From a virus, in the IMG/VR virus record IMGVR_UViG_3300009161_000109, positions 1 through 38,455 of that record: a stretch of DNA of 38,455 bases, one strand, 5' to 3'. Below the pieces are notes generated by a model. It did not search any database. It was not told where the DNA came from and saw only the letters and a list, made by a program, of their open reading frames with translations. A program made the position numbers and the translations under genes. Within the stretch, counting starts at the first letter, position 1. Each line of letters starts with the position of its first letter. Positions 1,413 through 38,216 of this stretch are shown one piece after another.

Positions 1413-1928
1413 ATGGCACAATCCACAAAAGTAAAAGTCGTGACCGGCAAGGTGCGTTTTAGCTACGCCAACGTGTTCACCCCTGTCGCCTCGGAGGAGG
1501 GCAAGACCCCCAAGTTCTCGGTCTCGCTCATCATCCCCAAGTCCGACAAGGAGACCATCAAGAAGATCGAGGCAGCCTACGAGGAGGTCAAGGCTGGCGC
1601 CGCGGCGTTCTTCGGCGGCACGGTGCCCAAGGGTCTGAAGGGCGGCCTGCGCGACGGTGACGAGGAGAAGGACGACGCGGCCTACGCCAACGCGTACTTC
1701 ATCAACGCCAACTCGATACAGCGCCCGGGACTCGTCGACAGCGAGATGAACGCCATCATCAGCCCGGAGGACTTCTACTCTGGCTGCTACGGCCGCGCCT
1801 CCCTGACGTTCTACCCCTACAACCAGCAGGGCAGCAAGGGCATCGCGGTGGGACTCAACAACCTCCAGAAGACGGCGGACGGCGACAAGCTCGGCGGCGG
1901 CTCCTCGGCGGCTCAGGACTTCGCTTAA
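1413..1928 (+). CDS. DUF2815 / Enc34-type ssDNA-binding protein
   Basis: This is a single-stranded DNA-binding protein of the DUF2815 family, whose phage Enc34 member has an OB fold and binds ssDNA. It would protect the template strand during replication by the polymerase encoded downstream. The 171 residues are typical for the family. The pattern is characteristic: a KVVTGKVRFSYANVFTP start, KFSVSLIIPKSD, the central AYFINANSIQRPGLVDSE block, the SGCYGRASLTFYPY strand and a short acidic/aromatic-ended tail (AAQDFA). An AGGAG Shine-Dalgarno precedes the ATG. It follows the promoter-like site at 1307-1350 and is 23 bp from the next gene. Confidence 0.88.
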   Translation: MAQSTKVKVVTGKVRFSYANVFTPVASEEGKTPKFSVSLIIPKSDKETIKKIEAAYEEVKAGAAAFFGGTVPKGLKGGLRDGDEEKDDAAYANAYFINANSIQRPGLVDSEMNAIISPEDFYSGCYGRASLTFYPYNQQGSKGIAVGLNNLQKTADGDKLGGGSSAAQDFA

Positions 1929-1951
1929 CTAACCCAGAAAGGAAAGACATC

Positions 1952-2308
1952 ATGGCAAAAGCAAAAGTAAAGTCGGAAAAGATTGACCACGTGAAGTTTA
2001 ACCACGACACGCTGGGCTTTATCAGTGTGCAGGGCAGCGCGGCGGGTTCGGACGACTACGACATCTCGGTGTCAATGTCGGACGGGGAGGACCGCGTCAA
2101 CCTGTACCTCAACGCCAACTGGCAAAGCAAGAACCCGGTGGAGCTCCTGAAGATGTATCAGGAGGGGATCGGCAAGGCCCTCGAGTTTGTCACTAAGGCC
2201 AGCAAGATGGGCACCCGGGGCAGCATCTGGGAGACCAACAGCATCAACAAGCAGACGGGGGACAAAATTCGCGCAAAGAAACCCTTGGCGAAGGCTAAGT
2301 TCCTGTAG
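1952..2308 (+). CDS. Hypothetical protein, 118 aa, Lys-rich ends
   Basis: I do not recognise the family. The 118-residue protein has basic ends (KAKVKSEK at the start, RAKKPLAKAKFL at the end) around an acidic middle with likely beta strands (LGFISVQGSAAGSDDYDISV, VNLYLNANW) and a helix (VELLKMYQEGIGKALEFVTKA). The basic tails and the place directly behind the ssDNA-binding protein suggest a nucleic-acid-associated replication accessory, but this is inference. An AAAGGAAAG ribosome-binding site lies 7 bp before the ATG. It is followed by a strong palindromic hairpin. Confidence 0.75.
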   Translation: MAKAKVKSEKIDHVKFNHDTLGFISVQGSAAGSDDYDISVSMSDGEDRVNLYLNANWQSKNPVELLKMYQEGIGKALEFVTKASKMGTRGSIWETNSINKQTGDKIRAKKPLAKAKFL

Positions 2309-2316
2309 GCGGCAAA

Positions 2317-2341
2317 CCCCCACCCTAGGGTGGGGGGCTTT
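2317..2341 (+). terminator. GC-rich hairpin, weak terminator overlapping the next gene's SD
   Basis: Positions 2317-2336 are a perfect 20-base palindrome (CCCCCACCCTAGGGTGGGGG) followed by GCTTT. It can fold with an 8-bp stem and a CTAG loop. The T-run is short, so termination is likely partial. The 3' G-tract is also the only Shine-Dalgarno-like element for the gene at 2343, so the hairpin could hide that site. Confidence 0.55.
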
Positions 2342-2342
2342 A

Positions 2343-2528
2343 ATGACAACCAACACTCGGCAGAGCTGGCACGCGACACCACCCCCGAACCCGGGGAGCT
2401 ACAGGTGGCGCCGCACGTGGCAGTGGGAGGACATCGGGCGCACCATTAACGCAGACCGGATGATCTACTCGGAGCGGTACTGCCAGATGGTGCCGGTTGA
2501 GAAATTGCAGGGGGAGTGGCTCTACTGA
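2343..2528 (+). CDS. Small hypothetical protein, 61 aa
   Basis: This encodes 61 residues rich in Trp, Arg and Tyr (SYRWRRTWQWEDIGRTINAD, then MIYSERYCQMVPVEKL). I do not recognise it. The ATG at 2343 was chosen because the G-tract of the preceding hairpin sits 5 bp upstream at SD distance; a longer in-frame reading would start inside the previous gene. It lies between a replication accessory gene and the Tad2 gene, in a region where phages often carry small host-takeover or anti-defence genes. Confidence 0.55.
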   Translation: MTTNTRQSWHATPPPNPGSYRWRRTWQWEDIGRTINADRMIYSERYCQMVPVEKLQGEWLY

Positions 2529-2547
2529 CTTTTTACTTGGGGGCAGT

Positions 2548-2808
2548 ATGAATTTTGGCAACGCAATTGAGTATTTGAAGATGGGCGACAAGCTGGCACG
2601 TAAGGGCTGGAACGGTGCGGGGATGTATATCTACCTCGTGGACGGCGGCTCGTTTGTTGTAAATCGCGAGCCCCTGATGTCGATTCTTGGCAGGGGCACC
2701 TTGGCAACCTACAGGTCTCACGTTGACATGAAGACGGCGGACGGGAGTCTGGTGCCGTGGGTTTGTTCGCAGACGGACATGCTCGCGGAGGACTGGGAGT
2801 CTGTGTAA
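2548..2808 (+). CDS. tad2: Tad2-family (DUF2829) anti-Thoeris protein
   Basis: The 86-residue protein matches the DUF2829 family, whose members include Tad2, which blocks Thoeris defence by sequestering the glyco-cyclic ADP-ribose signal made by ThsB. The family pattern is complete: MNFGNAIEYLKMGDKLARKG, WNGAGMYIYLVDGGSFVVNR, then R-H-DMKTADGSLVPW and the ending SQTDMLAEDWESV. The start was set at the ATG preceded by GGGGGC; an upstream in-frame start would overlap the previous gene. It lies just before the ribonucleotide reductase, in the early block where an anti-defence protein would be made soon after entry. Family membership is firm; anti-Thoeris activity of this copy is inferred. Confidence 0.88.
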   Translation: MNFGNAIEYLKMGDKLARKGWNGAGMYIYLVDGGSFVVNREPLMSILGRGTLATYRSHVDMKTADGSLVPWVCSQTDMLAEDWESV

Positions 2809-2824
2809 CTGAATAAACTGGCCC

Positions 2825-2850
2825 GGGGGCAGCCAGTACCCAATGCCCCC
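2825..2850 (+). terminator. Hairpin without T-run upstream of nrdJ
   Basis: GGGGGCA (2825-2831) and TGCCCCC (2844-2850) form a 7-bp stem with a 12-base loop, just after the tad2 stop. No T-run follows; instead there is an A/C-rich unstructured leader up to the reductase ATG. It may be a weak terminator or an mRNA-end stabiliser. Confidence 0.4.
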
Positions 2851-2882
2851 CAACACCACACAACCACACAAATATAAAACCT

Positions 2883-4757
2883 ATGGATCAATATCAAGAG
2901 TACATTGCAGCGAGCCGCTACGCGCGGTACATCGACGACAAGGGCCGCCGCGAGAACTGGGCGGAGACCGTCGAGCGTTTTGTCGACTACATCTTCACCC
3001 GCACACCCGCGATCACCAACGACACCGCGCTCCGCAAGGAAGTGCGTGACGCCGTGCTCAACCTCGAGGTCATGCCCTCCATGCGCGCCGTCATGACGGC
3101 CGGCAAGAGCGCGGACAGGGACAACACCTGCGTCTACAACTGCAGCTACCTGCCCGTGGATGACCCCAAGTCCTTCGACGAGGCCATGTTCATCCTGCTC
3201 TGCGGCACCGGGGTGGGGTTCTCGGTGGAGTCGAAGTACATCACCCAGCTCCCCGAGATTCCCGAGACGCTCTTCCCCAGCGAGCACACCATCATGGTGC
3301 ACGACAGCAAGGAGGGCTGGGCGAAGTCCTTCCGGCTGCTGCTGGCGCACCTGTACGCGGGTGAGATACCCCAGTGGGACGTCTCCCGCATCCGCGCCGC
3401 CGGCGCCCGGCTGAAGACCTTCGGCGGCCGCGCCTCTGGCCCCGGGCCGCTCGTGGACCTCTTCGAGTTCGCGGTGGCCATGTTCAAGAACGCCAAGGGC
3501 CGCAGGCTGCACTCCCTCGAGTGCCACGACCTGATGTGCAAGGTGGGCGAGGTGGTGGTCGTGGGCGGCGTGCGCCGCTCGGCGATGATTAGCCTCTCCG
3601 ACTTGGACGACGAGCGCATCCGCCACGCCAAGGCGGGGCCGTGGTGGGAGCTCTCCCCGCACCGGGCTCTGGCCAACAACTCGGCGGTCTACAACGAGAC
3701 CCCGAGCGTCGGGAAGTTCATGGAGGAGTGGAGCTCGCTCTACAACTCACACTCCGGGGAGCGCGGCATATTCAATCGCGAGGCGGCCAAGAAGGCCGTG
3801 GCCAAGTACGAGAACCGGGACCCGGATCACGAGTTTGGCACCAACCCCTGCTCGGAGATCATCCTGCGGCCGTACCAGTTCTGCAACCTGACCGAGGTGG
3901 TGGTGCGCGCGGAGGACTCATTCGAGGACATCAAGCGCAAGGTGCGCATAGCCACCCTGCTGGGGACGGTGCAGTCAACCTTCACCAAGTTCCCGTACCT
4001 GCGCAAGCTCTGGCAGAAGAACACCGAGGAGGAGCGTCTCTTGGGTGTCTCCATGACGGGCATCTTCGACCACACGTCTCTGTGCACGGCAGGCCCTGAG
4101 CTCGACGCCGCGCTGGCCGACCTGCGCGCCTACGCCCGCACCGTCAACGTGGAGCTGGCCGCCACGCTGGGGATACCCGCCAGCACGGCCATCACCTGCG
4201 TGAAGCCATCGGGGACGGTCAGCCAGCTGGTCAACTCGGCCTCGGGGATACACCCCCGCCACGCCAAGCACTACATCCGCCGCGTGCGGGGGGACAAGAA
4301 GGACCCCCTCTCGCAGTTCCTTATCTCACAGGGCGTGCCGGCGGAGGACTGCGTCTACAAGCCCACGCAGACCACCGTGTTCAGCTTCCCCCAGCGCGCC
4401 CCGGCGGGGCTCACACGGGACGGGGTGACACCCATCCAACACCTCGAGCTGTGGCTGGCGTATCAGCGGCACTGGTGCGAGCACAAGCCCTCCGTGACCA
4501 TCTCCGTGGAGGAGAGGGACTGGCCATCGGTCGGGGCGTGGGTCTGGGAGCACTTCGACGAAATCAGCGGGGTCTCCTTCCTGCCCTACGACGGTGGGAC
4601 GTACCGTCAGGCTCCCTACGAGACCTGCACCGAGGCCGAGTACGAGGCGATGAAGGCCGCGATGCCCACGATCAAGTGGGAGGAGTTCCGGGAGCTCACC
4701 GACAACGTGGAGGGTGCCCAGATGCTGGCCTGCACGGCGGGGGTCTGCGAGATTTAA
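2883..4757 (+). CDS. nrdJ: Class II (adenosylcobalamin-dependent) ribonucleotide reductase
   Basis: It reduces ribonucleotides to deoxyribonucleotides for phage DNA synthesis using an adenosylcobalamin-generated thiyl radical, so it needs host or environmental B12 but neither oxygen nor a second subunit. The protein resembles the monomeric triphosphate reductase type (Lactobacillus leichmannii). NPCSEI places N321, radical Cys C323 and E325; C334 lies 11 residues on, as C419 does from C408 in that enzyme; C87 in YNCSYLP is the likely partner. The C-terminal ACTAGVCEI holds the shuttle pair C617/C622. At 624 residues it is shorter than the roughly 740-residue model enzyme. No Shine-Dalgarno is visible; the leader is CACACAAATATAAAACCT. 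A strong terminator follows. Confidence 0.92.
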   Translation: MDQYQEYIAASRYARYIDDKGRRENWAETVERFVDYIFTRTPAITNDTALRKEVRDAVLNLEVMPSMRAVMTAGKSADRDNTCVYNCSYLPVDDPKSFDEAMFILLCGTGVGFSVESKYITQLPEIPETLFPSEHTIMVHDSKEGWAKSFRLLLAHLYAGEIPQWDVSRIRAAGARLKTFGGRASGPGPLVDLFEFAVAMFKNAKGRRLHSLECHDLMCKVGEVVVVGGVRRSAMISLSDLDDERIRHAKAGPWWELSPHRALANNSAVYNETPSVGKFMEEWSSLYNSHSGERGIFNREAAKKAVAKYENRDPDHEFGTNPCSEIILRPYQFCNLTEVVVRAEDSFEDIKRKVRIATLLGTVQSTFTKFPYLRKLWQKNTEEERLLGVSMTGIFDHTSLCTAGPELDAALADLRAYARTVNVELAATLGIPASTAITCVKPSGTVSQLVNSASGIHPRHAKHYIRRVRGDKKDPLSQFLISQGVPAEDCVYKPTQTTVFSFPQRAPAGLTRDGVTPIQHLELWLAYQRHWCEHKPSVTISVEERDWPSVGAWVWEHFDEISGVSFLPYDGGTYRQAPYETCTEAEYEAMKAAMPTIKWEEFRELTDNVEGAQMLACTAGVCEI

Positions 4758-6766: not shown

Positions 6767-9316
6767 CTACTTGCCGCCCTGCAGCCGCAGCCAGTCTAGC
6801 TCCGTGGCGCCCACGGCGTCGGGGTTGTTGCCCGTGGCGCGCATGTAGTGCTCCTTCCACGCCGTCGGGTGTCCCGCTGACTTGAGCATCTCCCCCGTCG
6901 GGGTGGAGGAGGCCCAGTGGTAGCGATCCTTGTCGTAGGGGTCGCGCTCCGGCCTGACGCCGGCCTCCCACGCCTTGCGGTAGTCGTAGTTCGCATTTTT
7001 ATTTATGTCCGGGGCCTCGCCGTACTGCTTTGAGAACTCCGAGAACCACGGCGTGGCGGATATGCCTCGACGGAAACGGTTCTCCCTGCCCTGCGCGGCC
7101 ATGTTCGGGTTCATGGTCGCGAAGTTCTGCAACCCCCCGGCGAGGTGCTGCACCTCCCCGCCGTCGGCGTACTTCTCTTCGGCCTTCTTGCCGTACACCG
7201 GCTTCTTCGCCAACACCAAGGGGCCAATCTGGATGACCTCCTCGGCGCTGTGGATTGGCTCCATCGAGGCGCGATCGTAAAAGTATCCGTGCCGCTCGGG
7301 GTCGTACCCGACCTGCTTCCACTCGGGGTGGTTGAGGTATGCCTGCGATTTGGCGACGGCCTCCTCCTCACTCATCGGGTTCCAATTGCCACGTATCACA
7401 GCGAACGGTGCCTTAGGACCCCCCTGCGCCACCTTGAGGGCTTTTTCTGGCTCCCCCATCATGGTTGCATCGGTAACCGATGACGTCGAGCCGTACGTTG
7501 TTGGTGAGCCCTCGCGGTGAATTGAGTTCACCCATACCCCGTGGTCTTTGTACGCGGGGATGTCTAGCCGCAGAGAGGTTCTCTCGCCGGCGGGTATCTC
7601 GTGCGACTTGCCAAACATTGGCTGTTTGTTTGTAGTCAACGCCCGCATCGCGTCCTCGGCCGTCGCCGGCGCGGGGACAAACGAGTAGGGCTCGACGGGC
7701 TTTAGCTTAGACACCAACGCATTGTACTGAGCGGCGCTGACCTTACCCTCGGCCAACATCTTCGCGGCCTCGGTCAACTCAGGCACCCGCTTAGTCACGT
7801 CCTTGAAATTCATGTTGAGGCGGTTGACGGCCGCCATCCCCCTACCTATGAGTTCCTCCCCAACCTTCTTCACGATGCTGCCCCTGTCGAAATGCTGGAT
7901 GCTGCCGCCCTCCGCCTTGACGCGGGTGACAGGCTTCGGGTAGAACACCGCCGCGGCCTCCGCGGAGGGGTTGAGGTAGCCCTCGTACCCGTACTCCTTG
8001 ACGAGGCGCTCCATGTCGTTCTGCGCCGAGGAGGCGTCAAGGACACCTTTGTTTGCCTCCGCGGTGTAGGGGCGGGTGTTAGACACCCGGGAGAGAAGGT
8101 TCAGCTTCTCGGGGTCCCTCTGCAGGTCGTAGAGGTTGTCTGACTCCGCGCGGTACCCGTACGGCCCCAGCTTGGCCTCAGGGACGCGCTCACCCAGCTC
8201 ACCGGGGTAGAAGTAGGTCCTGTCCTTCGGCCCCGAGCCAAGCCGCACACGCTCCGCCTCGGCGCCGGCTATGCCGCGGCCATACATCCGGGGGTCGGTT
8301 GTCGTGAGGTTCGAGAGGGGGCTGTAGTGCGTCAGTGCCGAGGAGGTCGCGGTGCCCGACCGGGGGGTAATCAGGCCCTGCATGTAGTCCGGGATGCCCC
8401 CGAGGTAGCCCGGCTCGTTGAACTCAGGGGGCAGGATGAGTGACTTCTGGGGGGCGTACTGGAACGTGTCCATTATCTCCCTGCGCCGCTCCAGCAACTT
8501 GCTAAGGCTCTCATCGCGGCCGTACCTGCGCGCCTCGTGTATGGCCTCATCGACCTTGAGCAGCTCCGCCTTCATTGTGGCGTTGAGTGGGGAGTAGTTG
8601 ACGAGGCTGTTCTGGCCGCGTGTCTCGGCGGTCATGGCGGGGCGTGCCAGATCGGTGTACATCGGCTGGTGCGCGCCCCACGCCACCTCCTCACCCTTCG
8701 GCCCGAAGGGGTTCTTCTTGATGCCGTGCCCGTAGAAGTCGTGCACCGCGCGGAACATCTCGTTGGAGTTGAGCCCCGTGCGCGGGTCAACGGCGTTAAG
8801 GAAGTCGTGCGGGTCCCCGCCCTGAAAGACGTTCAGGTGCCCCCGCTGGGTGACGTCATCAATCATCGCCGCGCTGTTGGGGTAGTTGCCCTCCCCGGCG
8901 CGGTGGAAGGACATACGCACCGGGAGGGACTCGAACTGCTGCTGTGTCTCCTTGGCCATCTGCCCGTAGGACTTGCGGAGGAGGTCGTCGTAGTTCTTTA
9001 TGCCGTGCTGCCGCACCATCTGGGGGTTCTTCTTCGCGTAGGCGTCAAAGACCGCGGTGCGGTACTGCGGGGAGTCCTCCACACCAAGGGAGTGCACCCG
9101 GGCTATGCCCGACTGCTTCGCGAGTGAGGACTCGGGCACCTCGGCGGGGGCGTACTGCCGACCCAGCGCCTTCTCGACGTACCTCTGCGCCGACCTCAGT
9201 GGGTTCGTCGGGCCGGGTGTGAGACCCTCCTTGGCGACGCGGTAGAAGGGGCCCTCCTGCTTGGTGGCGTAGGCAAGCCCCGCCTTAATCTGCGCGAGTG
9301 TCGGCGCCTTCGCCAT
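6767..9316 (-). CDS. Large polyvalent virion protein with putative ART-like domain
   Basis: This 849-residue multidomain protein is of the kind found in phage polyvalent proteins, probably packaged and ejected with DNA. Around residues 175-230 lies an FRAVHDFYGHG block followed by VAWGAHQPMYTDLARPAM and TAETRGQN, a conserved His/Asp-rich domain. Residues about 325-465 (LTHYSPLSNL, TYFYPG, NLYDLQRDP, GYEGYLNPS) resemble phage domains with an ADP-ribosyltransferase-like layout; that reading is inference. A GGSIQHF linker follows, then another polyvalent-type domain (RLDIPAYKDHGVWV ... EVIQIGPLVLAKK) and a second linker, YADGGEVQHLAGG. The ATG at 9316 fits TAATG coupling and matches the N-terminus of the neighbouring protein; an in-frame start 11 codons upstream was rejected. 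Confidence 0.75.
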   Translation of the reverse strand: MAKAPTLAQIKAGLAYATKQEGPFYRVAKEGLTPGPTNPLRSAQRYVEKALGRQYAPAEVPESSLAKQSGIARVHSLGVEDSPQYRTAVFDAYAKKNPQMVRQHGIKNYDDLLRKSYGQMAKETQQQFESLPVRMSFHRAGEGNYPNSAAMIDDVTQRGHLNVFQGGDPHDFLNAVDPRTGLNSNEMFRAVHDFYGHGIKKNPFGPKGEEVAWGAHQPMYTDLARPAMTAETRGQNSLVNYSPLNATMKAELLKVDEAIHEARRYGRDESLSKLLERRREIMDTFQYAPQKSLILPPEFNEPGYLGGIPDYMQGLITPRSGTATSSALTHYSPLSNLTTTDPRMYGRGIAGAEAERVRLGSGPKDRTYFYPGELGERVPEAKLGPYGYRAESDNLYDLQRDPEKLNLLSRVSNTRPYTAEANKGVLDASSAQNDMERLVKEYGYEGYLNPSAEAAAVFYPKPVTRVKAEGGSIQHFDRGSIVKKVGEELIGRGMAAVNRLNMNFKDVTKRVPELTEAAKMLAEGKVSAAQYNALVSKLKPVEPYSFVPAPATAEDAMRALTTNKQPMFGKSHEIPAGERTSLRLDIPAYKDHGVWVNSIHREGSPTTYGSTSSVTDATMMGEPEKALKVAQGGPKAPFAVIRGNWNPMSEEEAVAKSQAYLNHPEWKQVGYDPERHGYFYDRASMEPIHSAEEVIQIGPLVLAKKPVYGKKAEEKYADGGEVQHLAGGLQNFATMNPNMAAQGRENRFRRGISATPWFSEFSKQYGEAPDINKNANYDYRKAWEAGVRPERDPYDKDRYHWASSTPTGEMLKSAGHPTAWKEHYMRATGNNPDAVGATELDWLRLQGGK

Positions 9317-10290
9317 TACGCGTACGCCCTGTCGAGTGCGTCGAGCCACCCAAAATTCTGGATGCTGCCGCCCTCCTTGTGCTCCATCATCGCGCGGATG
9401 AGGTCGGCGTGGGTGGTCTCCGCGTTACCTGCTTTGTCCCACACGGCGTGGTGGGTGAGGTGTTGGTAGTAAGGCTCCAGCGAGGGGTCGATGTCCAGCC
9501 CCAACGCGTTCTGGCGCGCAGCGAGCCGGTCAACAGCCTCCTCGCCGCCGCCAATGCGCCGCGCGTACTTACGGCTGACGTCGCCCGGGGTGTGCAGCTG
9601 CAGTTGGCGGGCGTCCAGCGTCGGTAGGTCGCCGCGCCCCAGCAGGGAGCCGACGAAGCCGGTCTTGGCGGCGTCTATGCCGCGCAGGTCTTCCTTGGCG
9701 AACCCGCGCCAGTCGGAGAGGGGGCCGGCCACCAGCTGCGACACGTCCGGGCTCTTTTGAGGTAGGCGGGTCGCGGCTATACTTAATTCTTTCACGAGAT
9801 CGTTTTGCTTTCCAAATGGGGCGAACTTGGTGCGCAGGTCCTCCATAGCGGCTGGGCTGGCCTCGCCGCGCTCCGCGGCGTTGAGGTACCGCTGGCCGTG
9901 TGGCGTGCCAAGCCAGTCGGCGAAGGCTCCCTCGGGGCGCACCAGCTCGTCCGTGCGCTGCAGGGGCATGCCCTGCTTGGTGGCGGTGTTGTACGGCAGC
10001 CCCTGACGACCCACGGAAGACAGTGTGATGCCGTGCGCCTTGATAAGGTCGCGCATCCTAAGGTCACCCTCGTTGGCGCGCTTTGCCTGACCTGACATGA
10101 AGTTGCCGTAGCCGCGCTGCACGTAGTCCGGCACGGCCACCATGTTCAGGTCGCGCCCGACGTCGGCCATGGGGCGCCAACTCGTCCAGTCACTTATCTT
10201 TTTCACGACAGGGTCCGCGTAGTCCCTCAGCCTCGACTCTTGCGAGGCGAGGGCGGCCTTGATCTGCGCAAATGTCAGAGTCTTCGCCAC
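9316..10290 (-). CDS. Internal virion / polyvalent-type protein, 324 aa
   Basis: The GTG start overlaps the upstream stop by one base (TAGTG). The 324-residue protein begins MAKTLTFAQIKAALA, like the next protein downstream (MAKAPTLAQIKAGLA). It is largely helical, with a conserved-looking C-terminal part (SRKYARRIGGGEEAVDRLAA, then EPYYQHLTHHAVWDKAG) that also occurs in other phage polyvalent proteins, and it ends with the linker EGGSIQNF and LDALDRAYA. The same last nine residues end the upstream protein. No enzyme motif is recognised. I infer a virion protein ejected with DNA, from its position at the end of the late operon. Confidence 0.65.
   Translation of the reverse strand: MAKTLTFAQIKAALASQESRLRDYADPVVKKISDWTSWRPMADVGRDLNMVAVPDYVQRGYGNFMSGQAKRANEGDLRMRDLIKAHGITLSSVGRQGLPYNTATKQGMPLQRTDELVRPEGAFADWLGTPHGQRYLNAAERGEASPAAMEDLRTKFAPFGKQNDLVKELSIAATRLPQKSPDVSQLVAGPLSDWRGFAKEDLRGIDAAKTGFVGSLLGRGDLPTLDARQLQLHTPGDVSRKYARRIGGGEEAVDRLAARQNALGLDIDPSLEPYYQHLTHHAVWDKAGNAETTHADLIRAMMEHKEGGSIQNFGWLDALDRAYA
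9317..9347. repeat. 31-bp direct repeat at a gene junction, copy 1
   Basis: This segment is identical to 10291-10321. It encodes, on the - strand, the DALDRAYA end and stop region of the 324-residue protein, directly before the start of the 849-residue protein. The following start regions are also similar (MAK..T.AQIKA.LA), so the duplicated unit is a whole gene boundary. Confidence 0.9.
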
Positions 10291-12236
10291 TACGCGTACG
10301 CCCTGTCGAGTGCGTCGAGCCCACCGACCTCACCGCCCTCGTTGTAGCCCAAGTCCTCTAAACGATGGAAAAATCCGGGGTCCATCTTTTGTACCAGCTT
10401 GTTTCTAGATAAATCCATGGAGCCTACATTGGGGTCTTTCCTTGTCCCTGCGGCTATCTTAGCAGCAATCGCGGCCTCCATCTCGGTTAATTTATCTGGG
10501 AACAGCGCCGTGTGGGGGGTCATCATCATCTCAACGCCGAGGTCTTCCCCGCCATGAACGTACGGGTACGAGGCGTTAAGTTCTGGACGGTAGCTGTAAT
10601 TTCCGGTGAGCTTAAAAAGTCTAGGACCCACACTATTTACAGGAACGTCCAGCAGACCGGGCTCCGTGGTGTTTCGAATGATTGAGTCGTAGTCAAATAT
10701 CTGCCCCTTGTCGGGGCGTCCACGTGACACACCCTCGCCACCTAAGGTCTCCGTTGCAGCGGCGCGTTGTTCAAAAGTTTTTAACCTATTGGCAAAGTCA
10801 GGGGCCCCCACATCTATGTCGGGCTCAAAGAACGGCTTGCCGTCCTGTGATACATACTTTTTATGCCCCGCCAACTTGGCGTTCATTGCCGCACGTAAAT
10901 CGTCCGGGAGCAGCCCTTGATCCACAGCTTTTTGAAAACCGCGTAGTACCCTATCCGACACCCCCGTACTTGAGCGGTGCATCTCGGCGGTCCCAACGCG
11001 AGGGGCTATGATGATGCCCGGGTAGTCCCGTTGCATGTTTGCAAGCCCGCTGGCAGCGTTAGCATTTCCAGAACCCCACACCGAGCCCGCGTAGGCCGGG
11101 TCTACCGTGCTAAGGGTAGAGAACCGCGCCCCGCCCTTCTCCTTGCTCCTACCGAGCCGTGTAATCAGTCTGTCCGATATGGTGCTACCAAAGTATTCGT
11201 TTCGGTACGGGTCGAGCACCTTTGAGGCGGGTTGAGGCTGAACCTTAGGAAAATACAACCCTGAATTTTTTAGCGCAGGCATGAGAGTATCCACGCCCTT
11301 GCCTATGAGCTCTTGCCCAACCTTCTTAACTACGCCGGCGGTGGCGAAGTGTTGCACGCTGCCGCCGGCGGCCTTACGCTCCGCCGCCGCGTCGTTGAAG
11401 TACTTCAGGAGTGGCGAGATCGCCTCGGGGTGCTTCATCGCCTCCGCACCGGCGAGCATGCCTCCACCGATAACTTTTGGGAGGAGCCCCTGCTTAGTGG
11501 ACAGCGCGGCACCCAAGGCGCCCAGCCCGCTCTTCGCGGCGCCGGCGAAGTCACCCTCACGCGCCCTGTTGTAGGCGTCCACAAGCTCGTACCCCGCACC
11601 AGCGCCACCGAGCGTCCTGCTGACCGGCGAAGCTGCGGGCATAGACATCCCGCCACGAATAAACGCTCCCGCGGCGTTGGCTCGCCTAGCCATGGCGCTC
11701 TCCTCTACCGGAACTAAAAGTCCGCTTTTGGAAAGGCGAAATTTTGCGTTGGGCGCAAGGTCCGCCCCCGCGTTCAGCGCGGGGGTAATCTGCGTGTCAA
11801 GGACATGCTGCCCGTGTGCTGCAGTGCCGATAGTGTCTTGGTGCCTTGGGGTCATAAGCCCCTCGTCAACCTGAGTGCGCATGTATTTTTTTACCCCGTG
11901 TAGTTGGTTCACGTTGGCAAGACCACGGTCAACAAAGTCACGCGCCTCACCACCCACGAGCCCCAACCCGGCGCCCGCGCCGGCACCCACCCACGGGTTG
12001 ACACGGGAGGCCTGCAGGTGAGCCCACTCGGCGGCGGCGCGTTTGCGGTCCTCCGCGTCCTCCGCGTCTTCCTTAGCTTTACGCTCCGCGGCCTGCTCCG
12101 CCGCGAAGCGGGCGCGGTCTTCGGCGTCCTCGAGACTGCTCTGGCTGGTTTCACTCATTTTGTTTGCACCGTAGTTCCAGTCTTTAGGGAGGTTCGCCAT
12201 CTCTTCCGCCACCAGCTGCTCTCTCGGGGTGGTCAT
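10290..12236 (-). CDS. Internal virion / polyvalent-type protein, 648 aa
   Basis: The 648-residue protein starts with a charged helical region (residues 30-75, rich in Ala, Glu, Arg and Lys; probable coiled coil). A Gly/Ala-rich stretch follows (VGAGAGAGLGLVGGEA) that may touch membrane. The linker GGSVQHFATAGVVKKVGQEL comes near residue 290. The C-terminal domain (about 380-610: VWGSGNANAASGLANMQRDY, DRVLRGFQKAVDQGL, KGQIFDYDSIIRNTTEP, SYPYVHGGEDLGVE) is of a type seen in many uncultured phage virion proteins. The end is NEGGEVGGLDALDRAYA. Its start overlaps the upstream stop (ATGA). No catalytic motif was identified; ejection with the genome is inferred from place and composition. Confidence 0.65.
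   Translation of the reverse strand: MTTPREQLVAEEMANLPKDWNYGANKMSETSQSSLEDAEDRARFAAEQAAERKAKEDAEDAEDRKRAAAEWAHLQASRVNPWVGAGAGAGLGLVGGEARDFVDRGLANVNQLHGVKKYMRTQVDEGLMTPRHQDTIGTAAHGQHVLDTQITPALNAGADLAPNAKFRLSKSGLLVPVEESAMARRANAAGAFIRGGMSMPAASPVSRTLGGAGAGYELVDAYNRAREGDFAGAAKSGLGALGAALSTKQGLLPKVIGGGMLAGAEAMKHPEAISPLLKYFNDAAAERKAAGGSVQHFATAGVVKKVGQELIGKGVDTLMPALKNSGLYFPKVQPQPASKVLDPYRNEYFGSTISDRLITRLGRSKEKGGARFSTLSTVDPAYAGSVWGSGNANAASGLANMQRDYPGIIIAPRVGTAEMHRSSTGVSDRVLRGFQKAVDQGLLPDDLRAAMNAKLAGHKKYVSQDGKPFFEPDIDVGAPDFANRLKTFEQRAAATETLGGEGVSRGRPDKGQIFDYDSIIRNTTEPGLLDVPVNSVGPRLFKLTGNYSYRPELNASYPYVHGGEDLGVEMMMTPHTALFPDKLTEMEAAIAAKIAAGTRKDPNVGSMDLSRNKLVQKMDPGFFHRLEDLGYNEGGEVGGLDALDRAYA
10291..10321. 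repeat. 31-bp direct repeat at a gene junction, copy 2
   Basis: This segment is identical to 9317-9347. It encodes the DALDRAYA end of the 648-residue protein and abuts the GTG start of the 324-residue protein. The two copies are 974 bp apart, almost exactly one gene length. Confidence 0.9.
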
Positions 12237-14251
12237 TTTTTAGCGCCCCTTCTTTGCTCTTCTAGGAGCTTATCTCTCTTTTCTTCGTACCTTTTTTCCC
12301 TCGCCGGGTCTTCATATTTCGCGGGGGGTGCCGCAGGGGCCGCGGGGACTCTGCTGGCGTAGCTCGGCAAATCTATTTTACTTTCCTTTATGCTCACCAC
12401 ACGTTTGTGGTACGCGTCAAGCAACGCAATTCTCTCTGGGTTTTGCACAAACTCTTTGAAGTTTCCAAGCCCTCCCCTTGGGTAAAGTTTATTAAACAGT
12501 ACCCGCTCTTGTTCCTTGGCCTTGCTCAACTCCGCCAGTGCCATCTCGCGCTTGATTACAAGTTCCGCGGGGTCTTTTATGCTGCCCGTCGCGAGCTCCC
12601 CCAAACTGCGCTCGAGGTTAGATACCGAACCCTGCCCCTTAAACGCGTTCTTTTGGTATTCAAGCGCGCGCTGTGCGTAGAGGTTGGCAAGCTCTCGGTA
12701 GTTTGTAATTATCTTGTTTTGCTGATCCTCGGTAAGAAGTTGTCCGTTAGCGCCCAGAGTGGGGATTTTCAACGAAAACTCTGCTACGCCCGGGATGCTA
12801 ATATTGTTCCCTTGACCTGCAATCGTGGCACTTACACCACTTTCGAGGAGCCCCCCTATAGCAGCAAAGAATCCGGAACGCGCGAACTGGCCGAGTGCCT
12901 CCGGTGTCTCCTTGCTCAGGGATATAATTCTACTGGACAGCGCCATTGACTTGCGAGTATTTTCGGGGTCTACAGATGTATTCCACTGCTCATACGCGGG
13001 GGCAAAGATTTTTTCTACCTCAAACTTATCTGTTGACTCCTGCGCCCTCAGCTCGTCCGCGGTGAGCCTGCGTGGCGCCGCAGGTGCCGCCGCAGGTGCC
13101 GCCGCAGCGGGCGCAGCGGGCGCAGCGGGCGCCACCGCTACGGGCGCCGCAGGTGTTGCGGCCGCTGAAGGAACGTAGGGCATCTTAACCTTGCCCAACA
13201 CGCCCTGCTTGCTGTTTTTATCTAGGTAGTCAACAAGCCGCTGATCGTGTTCCGGGAGCGACTTGTAGGGAGTTGTTTTATCTCCGGGCGCGGGCGGCGG
13301 TGCCGGCGTCCAGTTGTCACTAGGGCCCGCGAGGGTGGCCGTCGGGCTAAGGACATCTGGCTCCCGCAGCGCAGCGGGCGCCGGTGCCGCAACAGGCGCA
13401 GGCGCAGGCGCAGGCGCAGCAACGGGCGCGGGTGCCGGGGACCCCCGAACCATATTTCGCACATCCGCTGGCATGCCCGGCGTATTCCCGTCGGGGCTGT
13501 ATTGAAAGGGTCGACCCTCTGCAGTAACCGCTGTTCTTGGGTCGAATGCTTTTTGCAACGTGCTAAACACAACCGCATCCGCGCCCGTGGTGTCTCCGCC
13601 CTGCCGTAATGCGTCGGCAGTATCCAAATCTTTTCCTATAACGCCTTTATTTTTCTCGTACTCCGTAACAAGTTTTGTGAGGTCCTCAAATCTATTCTGA
13701 TTTGCTAAGTTTTGTCCGACAGCTTTAAAATGATTTGGGAGTCTACCTATAAGCGCCTGCGCGGGGGATACCCTGCCCGCTGCGGGTGCGCCGGGTGCGC
13801 CGGGTGCGCCGGGTGCGCCGGGTGCGCCGGGTTCTGCACCGGGAACGGCGTTGAAGTACTGGTTCTGCTGCTTGGCCACCTCAGCGGCTGCGCGCTGCTG
13901 CGCCAGCTGCATGCGCATGTTGTAGATGTCGGTGGTCTGCTCCTCACGCGCCTTGCCGCGCAGGGCGAGACCCTCCGTGGGTCCCTGTATGCCCCCCGTC
14001 GTCCACGCCGCGGCGTCCTTGAGCCGCTCGAGGAAGCTCGACTTCTGTGCCTCCTTCTCGTCGATCAGGCGCTGCATGTTCTCGAGGATGGACTTACCGG
14101 CCTCGGTGTCAAGGTACTGAGTCCCCGCGATATTAACGCGCTGAAACTTACTTGTCCCCGGGGCGGCCTTGACGGCGATCGTCGCCGACGAGGGTTTCTC
14201 CTCGGCGGCTATGGAGTCTAAGGCGCCAGCTGGCGTTGCTGTGACTGTCAT
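12233..14251 (-). CDS. Internal virion protein with collagen-like and Ala/Pro-rich linkers, 672 aa
   Basis: The order along the protein is: an N-terminal region with a coiled coil (residues 55-135, Gln/Glu/Ala-rich); a five-unit Gly-Ala-Pro collagen-like run near residue 145; a helical segment; two long Ala/Pro linkers (about 275-300 and 370-395); a larger folded C-terminal region (LSSRIISLSKETPEALGQFA, then NLYAQRALEYQKNAFKGQG); and a basic Glu/Arg/Lys tail ending RRGAKK. This long, flexible, helix-rich layout suits an internal or ejection protein that must unfold to leave through a short tail. No enzyme motif was seen. AAGGAAAA lies before the ATG, and the stop overlaps the next start (ATGA). 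Confidence 0.65.
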   Translation of the reverse strand: MTVTATPAGALDSIAAEEKPSSATIAVKAAPGTSKFQRVNIAGTQYLDTEAGKSILENMQRLIDEKEAQKSSFLERLKDAAAWTTGGIQGPTEGLALRGKAREEQTTDIYNMRMQLAQQRAAAEVAKQQNQYFNAVPGAEPGAPGAPGAPGAPGAPAAGRVSPAQALIGRLPNHFKAVGQNLANQNRFEDLTKLVTEYEKNKGVIGKDLDTADALRQGGDTTGADAVVFSTLQKAFDPRTAVTAEGRPFQYSPDGNTPGMPADVRNMVRGSPAPAPVAAPAPAPAPVAAPAPAALREPDVLSPTATLAGPSDNWTPAPPPAPGDKTTPYKSLPEHDQRLVDYLDKNSKQGVLGKVKMPYVPSAAATPAAPVAVAPAAPAAPAAAAPAAAPAAPRRLTADELRAQESTDKFEVEKIFAPAYEQWNTSVDPENTRKSMALSSRIISLSKETPEALGQFARSGFFAAIGGLLESGVSATIAGQGNNISIPGVAEFSLKIPTLGANGQLLTEDQQNKIITNYRELANLYAQRALEYQKNAFKGQGSVSNLERSLGELATGSIKDPAELVIKREMALAELSKAKEQERVLFNKLYPRGGLGNFKEFVQNPERIALLDAYHKRVVSIKESKIDLPSYASRVPAAPAAPPAKYEDPAREKRYEEKRDKLLEEQRRGAKK
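13784..13828. repeat. Five tandem 9-bp units coding Gly-Ala-Pro
   Basis: GGGTGCGCC is repeated five times without change and encodes Gly-Ala-Pro triplets on the - strand. Perfect short tandem repeats like this expand and contract by slippage, so the collagen-like run probably varies in length between related phages. Confidence 0.9.
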
Positions 14252-24300: not shown

Positions 24301-24343
24301 ACTCCTATAACCACTTATGCAAAAAACGGGGTGTTTTCGCCCC
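24301..24343 (-). promoter_or_regulatory. Late-class promoter for tail gene operon, fused to a terminator
   Basis: On the - strand, GGGGCG (24343-24338), 18 bp, CATAAGT (24319-24313) and then GGTTATAGGAGT. The first box abuts the TAG stop of the lysozyme gene. The 18-bp spacer contains a short hairpin arm and T6, so the same bases can act as a terminator for the lysozyme transcript. Confidence 0.75.
24321..24343 (-). terminator. Short terminator after the lysozyme gene
   Basis: Read on the - strand, GGGGCG-AAAA-CACCCC can pair with one C-A mismatch and is followed by G and T6. It starts inside the TAG stop codon and lies within the promoter spacer. Confidence 0.55.
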
Positions 24344-24864
24344 TACTTAGCAAGAAAGAGCGCCACCTCCCGGTGCCGGCGCTTAGTCAGCGCCTTGGGC
24401 TTGACCCACCCAAGGAACGCCCTCCCGGCGCCCGCCTCGTCCCCCAGATTCATCCTGCGGACGACCTCGGAGCCCTTGAACCTGTCCTCCCCGATGTTGA
24501 AGCACAGGGAGGCCATGGCGTCAAACTGGTTCTGGGTGTACGGCACCCAGAGGGCGTCCGATATGGCCAGCTCGCACTTGGCCAAGTCGTACAGGAACAT
24601 CTCGAGCACCTCGGGGTCGCTCAGGACGGCCCTCAGGAGCCTCCGCTCCCCCTTCCTGATGTGGTGCCCCACCCCAATCGTCCAGTTGCCCTGTATGTCC
24701 CTGTAGGCGCTGTTTCGGAAGCCCTCGAGGCGGGTTATGAACTCTACGGTTGTGGGCTGTATACCGGCCCTAGTTGGTGGCTCCTCCACGGGTTCCGTGG
24801 AGCCGATGAACATCGAGGCTAGTACAAATCCAATGACGAGTACCGTCAGGCCGGGCTTGAGCAC
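24343..24864 (-). CDS. Endolysin, T4-type lysozyme (GH24) with SAR-like N-terminus
   Basis: This muramidase cleaves the glycan strands of peptidoglycan at lysis. The GH24 catalytic triad is visible as EGFRNSAYRDIQGNWTIGVG, with Glu, Asp and Thr at T4 lysozyme spacing (E47, D56, T62 in this numbering). The C-terminal GWVKPKALTKRRHREVALFL block is also typical. The N-terminus (LTVLVIGFVLASMFIG) is a weakly hydrophobic segment fitting a signal-arrest-release anchor, so export may not need the holin. The GTG at 24864 was chosen because GGGAGG lies 5 bp upstream; an in-frame GTG two codons earlier overlaps that SD. It is the last gene of the lysis cassette. Confidence 0.88.
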   Translation of the reverse strand: MLKPGLTVLVIGFVLASMFIGSTEPVEEPPTRAGIQPTTVEFITRLEGFRNSAYRDIQGNWTIGVGHHIRKGERRLLRAVLSDPEVLEMFLYDLAKCELAISDALWVPYTQNQFDAMASLCFNIGEDRFKGSEVVRRMNLGDEAGAGRAFLGWVKPKALTKRRHREVALFLAK

Positions 24865-24922
24865 GGGCACCTCCCATGTAACCTACACCCAACACTAATA
24901 CAAAATTAGCGCCGGGAGTCAA

Positions 24923-25474
24923 TCACCTTTGAGGGATGTTGCCCCCGACGGGGTTCTTGGCGCCGACTGGCGCCGCGGTGCCCACCAGCGCCCCCGGGGG
25001 GATGGTGGTGGCCGTCCACGGGCTCTCGTTCATGGGGCCGAGGCAATCCGCGAGCGTCACCCCGTTGACTTTCTTGTCGCGCTTGCGGCACAGCATGGAC
25101 CACTGGTTGGCCATCCCACCCCCCGGCGCTATTGTGGTGGTGAAGGTGCGGATCACGGCCGGCTTGACGGCCCACGTGGGGGCCTGCGGGTAACTCGTCT
25201 CGGTGGAGAAGAGGCTCCAGACGAACCCGGCGGGTGCCTTGCAGGAGTTAAACATCAGGCTCATGTCCGCGAAGGCACTCCCGTTCAGCACGGGGCACAC
25301 GGAGATGCCCTCCCGGAAGGCGGTGCCTTTCACGGTGATGGAATTCCCTGTCGGGGCGGTGGGGCTGGCGGCGCACAGGGCGTACTCGCCCTTGCATATC
25401 TTGAGGCTGAGTGGGTCCGCGATGGAGAGCTGTGAGGCCAGCGTCAGGAGGGCAAACAGAATAATCTTAGGCAT
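24923..25474 (-). CDS. Secreted protein of unknown function in the lysis cassette, 183 aa
   Basis: A clear signal peptide (MPKIILFALLTLASQLSIA, cleavage likely before DPL) is followed by about 164 residues with six cysteines, so disulfides and a periplasmic or outer location are likely. Parts include SLKICKGEYALCAAS, NSITVKGTAFREG and MNESPWTATTIPPGAL. I do not recognise the family. The ATG at 25474 has GAGGAA five bases upstream; an in-frame start eight codons earlier was rejected. It overlaps the M15 peptidase gene by 8 bp. Its position between two lysins suggests a role in envelope disruption, but it lacks spanin hallmarks such as a lipobox. Confidence 0.7.
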   Translation of the reverse strand: MPKIILFALLTLASQLSIADPLSLKICKGEYALCAASPTAPTGNSITVKGTAFREGISVCPVLNGSAFADMSLMFNSCKAPAGFVWSLFSTETSYPQAPTWAVKPAVIRTFTTTIAPGGGMANQWSMLCRKRDKKVNGVTLADCLGPMNESPWTATTIPPGALVGTAAPVGAKNPVGGNIPQR

Positions 25475-25895
25475 ATTTCCTCGTTCCGGTTTTGTCAATA
25501 ATTAAGGCGCCGCGCCTCGGTGCGTCACTCAGGGTGTTTGGCACCGAGATATGGGTCCAGCTGTCAAACTCGCGTATGACCTGATCGAAGGGGAGGTCGG
25601 AGTCAACCACACACCGCACCACCTCGTCCGGGGTCATGCCGGGCACGCGGAGGTCCGCGGCGCAGCCCAGCCTGTGCTGGCTGGTGTCCTTGGAGCCCAC
25701 CGCGTCGTTGACGGCCTTGGAGCGGTAGGCGGAGTTTATTACGACTGCCCCGCCCCCTAGGAGGTTCCTGAGTGACTCCAGCAGTACGGCGAGGCGCCTG
25801 AGGTTGGTCAGCGCCCGGTCGTCGGGGGTGTTGTCGAGGGCGCGGTGGTCGGTGCGGGTCAGCTCGGCGTAGCTGAAATGCTCACTTAGCTGCAT
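25467..25895 (-). CDS. Peptidase M15-type endolysin (D,D-/L,D-peptidase)
   Basis: This zinc peptidase cuts peptidoglycan cross-links. The M15 family pattern is visible: INSAYRSKAVNDAVGSKDTS, then the zinc ligands H74 in SQH and D81 in AADLRVPG, FDQVIREF (possible catalytic E109), and the last zinc ligand H115 in WTHISV. At 142 residues it is a single catalytic domain without a cell-wall-binding module or signal peptide, so it needs the holin encoded immediately upstream. The start is coupled to the holin stop (TAATG). It offers a second chemistry beside the lysozyme. Confidence 0.9.
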   Translation of the reverse strand: MQLSEHFSYAELTRTDHRALDNTPDDRALTNLRRLAVLLESLRNLLGGGAVVINSAYRSKAVNDAVGSKDTSQHRLGCAADLRVPGMTPDEVVRCVVDSDLPFDQVIREFDSWTHISVPNTLSDAPRRGALIIDKTGTRKYA

Positions 25896-37787: not shown

Positions 37788-38216
37788 TTAGTCTACAAAG
37801 GATTTCATCTTGCGCGCGTCCTCGAAGCTGCGAATCCTCGCGATCACTTCTCTGGCGCCTACAATGATGAAAACTACGGGGTCGTTGTCGTCGTCTAGGT
37901 CGACTGTCCACCTGTCGCCGCCCCACTTGATGGTGCGGACGAGGTCCCCAACGCTGCACCACGCGCCCTCGGGCCACGTTTCTAGCGTGTCTGGCGATTT
38001 GTACGCCAGCGGACCAATTGAAACTACCTTCGCAACGACCTCGTTGTATTTCACGGTGTCCTTGGTCTCTTGAACCAGAACGATGCCACCGCGCGATTTG
38101 GACTTAGTCCTGCGCAGTTGCACCAGAACCCGGTCACCTACAATGTCTACGCCGGGGTCAACCTGTGGAAATACCTCTGCCTCTGTCCTCAAATCGGGCT
38201 CGATTTTTTCTTTCAT
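37788..38216 (-). CDS. groES: GroES-like co-chaperonin (Cpn10)
   Basis: This encodes a 142-residue Cpn10-type protein. VGDRVLVQLRRTKSKSRGGI opens the beta barrel and is followed by the mobile-loop tripeptide IVL at residues 45-47, used by GroES to bind GroEL. Later strands are NEVVAKVVSIGP, WCSVGDLVRTIKWGG and VVFIIVGAREVIARI. About 20 extra N-terminal residues and a longer roof insertion (residues 71-84 and 100-113) distinguish it from bacterial GroES (about 95 residues). It probably replaces host GroES for folding the coat protein, as T4 gp31 does. GAGAAGGAAAC precedes the ATG, and it overlaps the upstream gene by 4 bp. Confidence 0.82.
   Translation of the reverse strand: MKEKIEPDLRTEAEVFPQVDPGVDIVGDRVLVQLRRTKSKSRGGIVLVQETKDTVKYNEVVAKVVSIGPLAYKSPDTLETWPEGAWCSVGDLVRTIKWGGDRWTVDLDDDNDPVVFIIVGAREVIARIRSFEDARKMKSFVD

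Follow-up and report, generated by a model that had tools for sequence, protein, structure and literature searches.

The question raised by positions 2548 to 2808 of this viral DNA is whether the short gene found there encodes a protein that disarms a signalling defense of the host and, if so, which signal it takes up. The window, meaning the entire stretch of DNA analyzed, corresponds to the whole 38,455-base IMG/VR virus record. It is probably an incomplete genome, since a near relative (L002) spans a 61.7-kb contig. The gene, here called tad2, lies on the plus strand and consists of an ATG start, 86 codons (2548-2805), and a stop codon (2806-2808). An in-frame TTG at 2497 provides an alternative start that would yield a protein of 103 amino acids; the ATG is preferred because it is where the homologues start.

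The tad2 product is a well-supported, ordinary new member of a known anti-defense family. Its residues 1-86 match the Pfam family PF11195 (Tad2-like, formerly DUF2829) across the full profile (1-73 of 73) with an E-value of 4.5e-26, and at 91.6 bits, where 25 is the cut-off, the score is far above chance. Two PHROG families also match (4e-28 and 5e-27), as do the sequences of ModTad2 (4e-18), HgmTad2 (2e-14), SPO1 Tad2 (7e-13), and SptTad2 (2e-12) in the PDB. The first-pass annotation had described a complete DUF2829/Tad2-like protein in the early block of the genome. Both points are borne out, the second by the position of the gene on the plus strand between genes for a single-stranded DNA-binding protein (SSB) and a class II ribonucleotide reductase (RNR), with the structural genes on the minus strand. 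Tad2 matches are already present in 355 records of the phage collection. The PF11195 label is not in itself proof of activity in each member.

The predicted structure agrees with the family assignment. An AF2 model of the single chain, built with an alignment of 75 relatives, reached a mean pLDDT of 97.1. All 24 Foldseek matches in the PDB at E ≤ 0.001 are Tad2-family chains, and a structural aligner gave Z-scores of 11.0-12.1 to ten Tad2 entries, the next, unrelated row scoring 6.0. Tad2 structures are the only strong PDB matches of the model.

Eight residues are invariant in the 75 aligned relatives (R18, W21, N22, W71, D77, L79, D82, W83), and the window protein keeps all of them. According to a review (PMC12043709), two protomers build the gcADPR pocket, one contributing loops b1-b2 and b3-b4 along with strand b4, the other loops b1-b2 and b4-a3 along with helix a3. 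On the basis of the alignment columns, the strand limits of the model, and this description, the GWNGAGM loop between strands 1 and 2 (codons 20-26, positions 2605-2625, plus strand) is assigned as a pocket loop. The W-x-x-S-Q-x-D-x-L-A-x-D-W motif (codons 71-83, positions 2758-2796, plus strand), placed from the alignment columns and the same description, leads from a loop into the last helix, on the side of the partner protomer that faces the pocket; its invariant positions are Trp71, Asp77, Leu79, Asp82, and Trp83. In the model, W21 and N22 would map to the first pocket loop, and W71 and D77 to the last loop and helix. The first-pass annotation had pointed to the pocket residues conserved in Tad2 as a check on the assignment. 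The invariant residues pass this check, but position 24 of the GWNGKGM loop does not: the window has Ala, as do the L002 and L003 alleles, where 68 of the 75 relatives have Lys and the rest Arg, Ala, or Val. Lys24, which lies in a pocket loop and may have a part in binding, is near-invariant but does not count among the features by which the Tad2 family is defined. The substitution therefore makes the ligand less certain, but not the Tad2 membership.

Ligands differ within the family. SPO1 Tad2 binds gcADPR and ModTad2, linked to type II Thoeris, binds His-ADPR (PMC13299392; also PDB titles); HgmTad2 binds cyclic dinucleotides and cADPR, and SptTad2 likewise binds cyclic dinucleotides. ModTad2, from a Myroides odoratus prophage (PDB 8v3e, 9eib), is by sequence the closest protein with a solved structure and also gives the top Foldseek match (E 1.6e-9). 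It shares the length class of the window protein, neither having a long insertion, but differs in its identity of 41%, its tree group, and its Lys at position 24. SPO1 Tad2 (Gp34.65; PDB 8sme-8smg, 8wje), the founding anti-Thoeris member, has the same fold (Z 11.5-11.8) and the same motif set, likewise with no long insertion, whereas its identity is about 36-41%, its central segment is different, and it belongs to another tree group. HgmTad2/AcrIIA7 and SptTad2 (PDB 8kbi-8kbm, 8wjd, 9kzr) share family and fold, but carry a long insertion in the central segment that has been connected with the binding of cyclic dinucleotides (PMC12043709). Over the aligned range this amounts to approximately 16 extra residues in HgmTad2 and 10 in SptTad2, which ModTad2, SPO1 Tad2, and the window protein lack. 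Compared with HgmTad2 and SptTad2, no long insertion is present between strands 2 and 5 of the window protein, where the central segment counts 25 residues, as it most often does in the relatives.

The closest sequences outside the near-clonal group described below are Tad2-like genes of environmental phages, namely L004-L007 and the Manatee Spring phages MW202665 and MW202475. These hypothetical proteins are 59-67% identical to the window protein and share its central ‘VNRxPL’-like pattern, but all have Lys24 in place of Ala24. In a tree of only 88 columns, in which many forks are unresolved, the window protein and L004-L007 form a clade with support of 99/96. The same 88 columns place it apart from ModTad2, SPO1 Tad2, and the HgmTad2/SptTad2 group, and the tree contains no tested Tad2 within its clade. 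The ligand of the nearest solved structure, ModTad2, was therefore not transferred, given that the window protein falls outside the supported tree group of ModTad2. An ADPR-type ligand is our best guess over a cyclic dinucleotide, because the window protein has no long insertion and SPO1 Tad2, which also has none, does not bind 3'3'-cGAMP (PMC11722364). The choice between His-ADPR and gcADPR is not readable from the phylogeny.

By analogy with the characterized members, tad2 is very probably an accessory phage gene for a Tad2-family sponge that takes up an ADP-ribose-derived alarm molecule of the host and so blocks activation of ThsA. As in solved Tad2 structures, the protein would assemble as a homotetramer with two ligand pockets between protomers. 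It would bind an alarm molecule derived from ADP-ribose by a host TIR enzyme and would hold this molecule without cutting it. In a Thoeris-bearing host, the ThsA effector would then stay off and the infected cell would not abort. The first-pass annotation had proposed a sponge for signals of the cyclic ADP-ribose type. Its core survives in the family, the fold, the invariant residues, and the missing cyclic-dinucleotide insertion; its narrower wording needs qualifying, gcADPR-type molecules being one of several ligand options.

Other roles have been considered for a protein of this fold. The family and fold shared with the cyclic-dinucleotide binders, with model Z-scores of 12.0 to SptTad2 and 11.9 to HgmTad2, would also suit a sponge acting mainly on cyclic dinucleotides against CBASS, like the second site of those two proteins. 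This is very unlikely: the window protein lacks the insertion tied to such binding, insertion-free SPO1 Tad2 leaves 3'3'-cGAMP unbound, and the tree unites HgmTad2, AcrIIA7, and SptTad2 in a supported group that leaves the window protein outside. The tree likewise separates it from AcrIIA7, which makes an AcrIIA7-type anti-CRISPR that blocks Cas9 the least plausible role, with hardly any chance of being correct. AcrIIA7 does belong to the same family (sequence match 2.5e-12) and the label ‘anti-CRISPR protein’ is attached to some related phage genes, but AcrIIA7 is nearly identical to HgmTad2, whose solved complexes hold cyclic nucleotides.

The remaining alternative is a Tad2 fold whose ligand has been lost or changed, either through decay or through recruitment to another phage role. 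The replacement of near-invariant Lys24 by Ala and the unusual variability of the central segment among close relatives are what such a history might leave behind. Against this stand the eight invariant residues, all kept, and the comparison with the near-clonal phage L003, in which codons 1-31 show no protein change and codons 55-86 show seven synonymous differences and a single non-synonymous one. With so few protein changes in these two parts, most of the tad2 frame looks conserved by selection, and we regard loss or change of the ligand as improbable. An ADPR-type sponge thus remains the preferred reading.

The genomic setting is that of an accessory gene. The left border is an Enc34/gp2.5-type ssDNA-binding protein (1413-1928, plus strand; PF10991, E 1.8e-62; phrog_112), the right border is the class II RNR (2883-4757, plus strand; phrog_367, E 1.7e-178), and a family A DNA polymerase follows. 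None of the 70 other phage loci with both genes in sight has tad2 between them, although one phage may be represented by several of these loci, and the gene could occupy another site in those genomes. In 45 of the 70, the junction is empty, with a gap of 68-166 bp and no ORF of at least 35 amino acids. Other junctions hold a recombination endonuclease VII-like protein (L088), a rubrerythrin (L119), or a P-loop kinase (L108, L133, L138, L140). Hence tad2 is an accessory gene in an SSB-RNR cargo slot (window 1413-4757, loci L087-L179). A search near tad2 revealed neither a tRNA nor a sigma-70-like promoter scoring above chance. Elsewhere in the window, the minus strand encodes four large proteins of 324-860 amino acids at 6767-14251, three without a Pfam or PHROG match and one with a partial PHROG match. 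Two lysis-type enzymes, a phage lysozyme (1.2e-27) and an M15 peptidase (6.7e-16), are encoded close to each other (24343-24870, 25467-25895), and a Cpn10/GroES-like co-chaperonin (PF00166, E 7e-6) lies near the head genes at 37788-38216.

The two small genes between SSB and tad2 had also been suggested as anti-defense genes, a proposal that found no support: neither product has a match in Pfam, PHROGs, PADLOC, or NCBIfam. The 118-amino-acid protein at 1952-2308 (plus strand) belongs to a recurring SSB-adjacent family that also occupies the SSB-RNR slot; in six other phage loci a relative lies immediately downstream of SSB. Its AF2 model, of lower confidence (pLDDT 77), has four strands and a long helix, together with a basic tail that is disordered. 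The top structural matches are PUR-alpha repeats with Z-scores of 6.5 and 5.4, values below 8 being weak if taken alone. PUR-alpha repeats bind nucleic acid, which fits both the position beside SSB and the basic tail. The protein is likely a nucleic-acid-binding replication companion of SSB, rather than an anti-defense factor. A terminator-like hairpin predicted by folding (2317-2336, plus strand) ends this unit directly before the insert and tad2; the fold energy is -19.0 kcal/mol for 2311-2346 and -20.9 for the L002 counterpart. The second gene, a 61-amino-acid ORF at 2343-2528, is carried by a 194-bp accessory insert (2337-2530, plus strand). The insert is missing in L002 and in another near-clonal phage, L039 (blastn breakpoints 2336/2531 and 2336/2534, respectively), but is present in L003, where the ORF has two synonymous differences and one non-synonymous difference, too few to judge. 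It is classified as an orphan accessory insert.

The host is probably an alphaproteobacterium, because the major capsid protein is 67% identical to those of the Caulobacter phages GB2A, RW, RLK, and KcrB and the RNR is nearest to those of phages of Roseobacter-group and Rhizobium hosts. The capsid match is the best clue, but in GB2A only part of the structural genes of the window match, mostly at 30-50%. Naming a host from the RNR, SSB, or polymerase was rejected, as their matches are spread over phages of many hosts. Thoeris was then surveyed in 289 genomes from the class of an Oricola genome, taken as the center for Alphaproteobacteria. ThsB_TIR, a Pfam model that can also match non-Thoeris TIR proteins, was found in 44 of them, and a Caulobacter vibrioides control was also positive. 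Among 23 of these 44 genomes checked for ThsA, two have ThsA_Macro and one (G265) has a SIR2-STALD ThsA near TIR genes. In G227, ThsA_Macro lies directly beside ThsB, the type II Thoeris arrangement. In five genomes with tad2 loci, examined for co-occurrence, no ThsA_Macro was detected, but this says little because the controls gave no signal either. Thoeris is therefore within reach of the probable hosts, though not common among them. The natural hosts may carry Thoeris, as the first-pass annotation implied, but in the sampled class the genes occur in a minority of genomes, most having no ThsB_TIR match.

Within the near-clonal group of four contigs (window, L002, L003, L039), the last three being 94-98% identical in DNA to the window over the region, the tad2 alleles differ. 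L002 has the window allele (98%). Between L003 and the window, codons 32-54 (2641-2709, plus strand) differ at 23 of their 69 bases, and the 93 bases upstream, through codon 31, differ at one. Synonymous divergence in codons 32-54 is 0.44, compared with 0.03-0.12 in neighboring genes. Across codons 55-86 the protein is nearly identical while synonymous divergence is 0.33, and the imported tract therefore seems to extend into the C-terminal part. L039 shows a 41-base gap and 14 differences at 2641-2709, and its 72-amino-acid allele is 56% identical overall, whereas its exonuclease, SSB, 1952 protein, and RNR are 96-100% identical. A scan of 69-bp segments over the aligned 4.9-6.8 kb placed the most diverged segment within tad2 in two of the three pairwise comparisons: L003 (23 differences; next best 12) and L039 (30 differences and gaps; next best outside tad2 10). 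In the L002 comparison, the most diverged segment was not in tad2. The runner-up against L003 (12 differences; pN 0.067, pS 0.10) lies in an 85-amino-acid ORF at 1012-1269, which has no Pfam family match above cut-off.

We read these patterns as recombination that replaced either the central segment or the greater part of tad2. Such exchange fits an arms race, though two cases do not prove selection. A bolder proposal is that the ‘VNRxPL’ proteins are a Tad2 subfamily with its own ligand choice, the central segment serving as a swappable specificity cassette that recombines between near-clonal phages to follow host signals; this is speculative and unlikely to hold as a whole. The window adds an environmental phage, probably of alphaproteobacteria, to the known carriers of Tad2. 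Together with L002, L003, and L039 it provides a natural allele series in one background, differing in the central segment or body of tad2. This series, the most useful part of the finding, makes it testable whether the central segment sets ligand choice.
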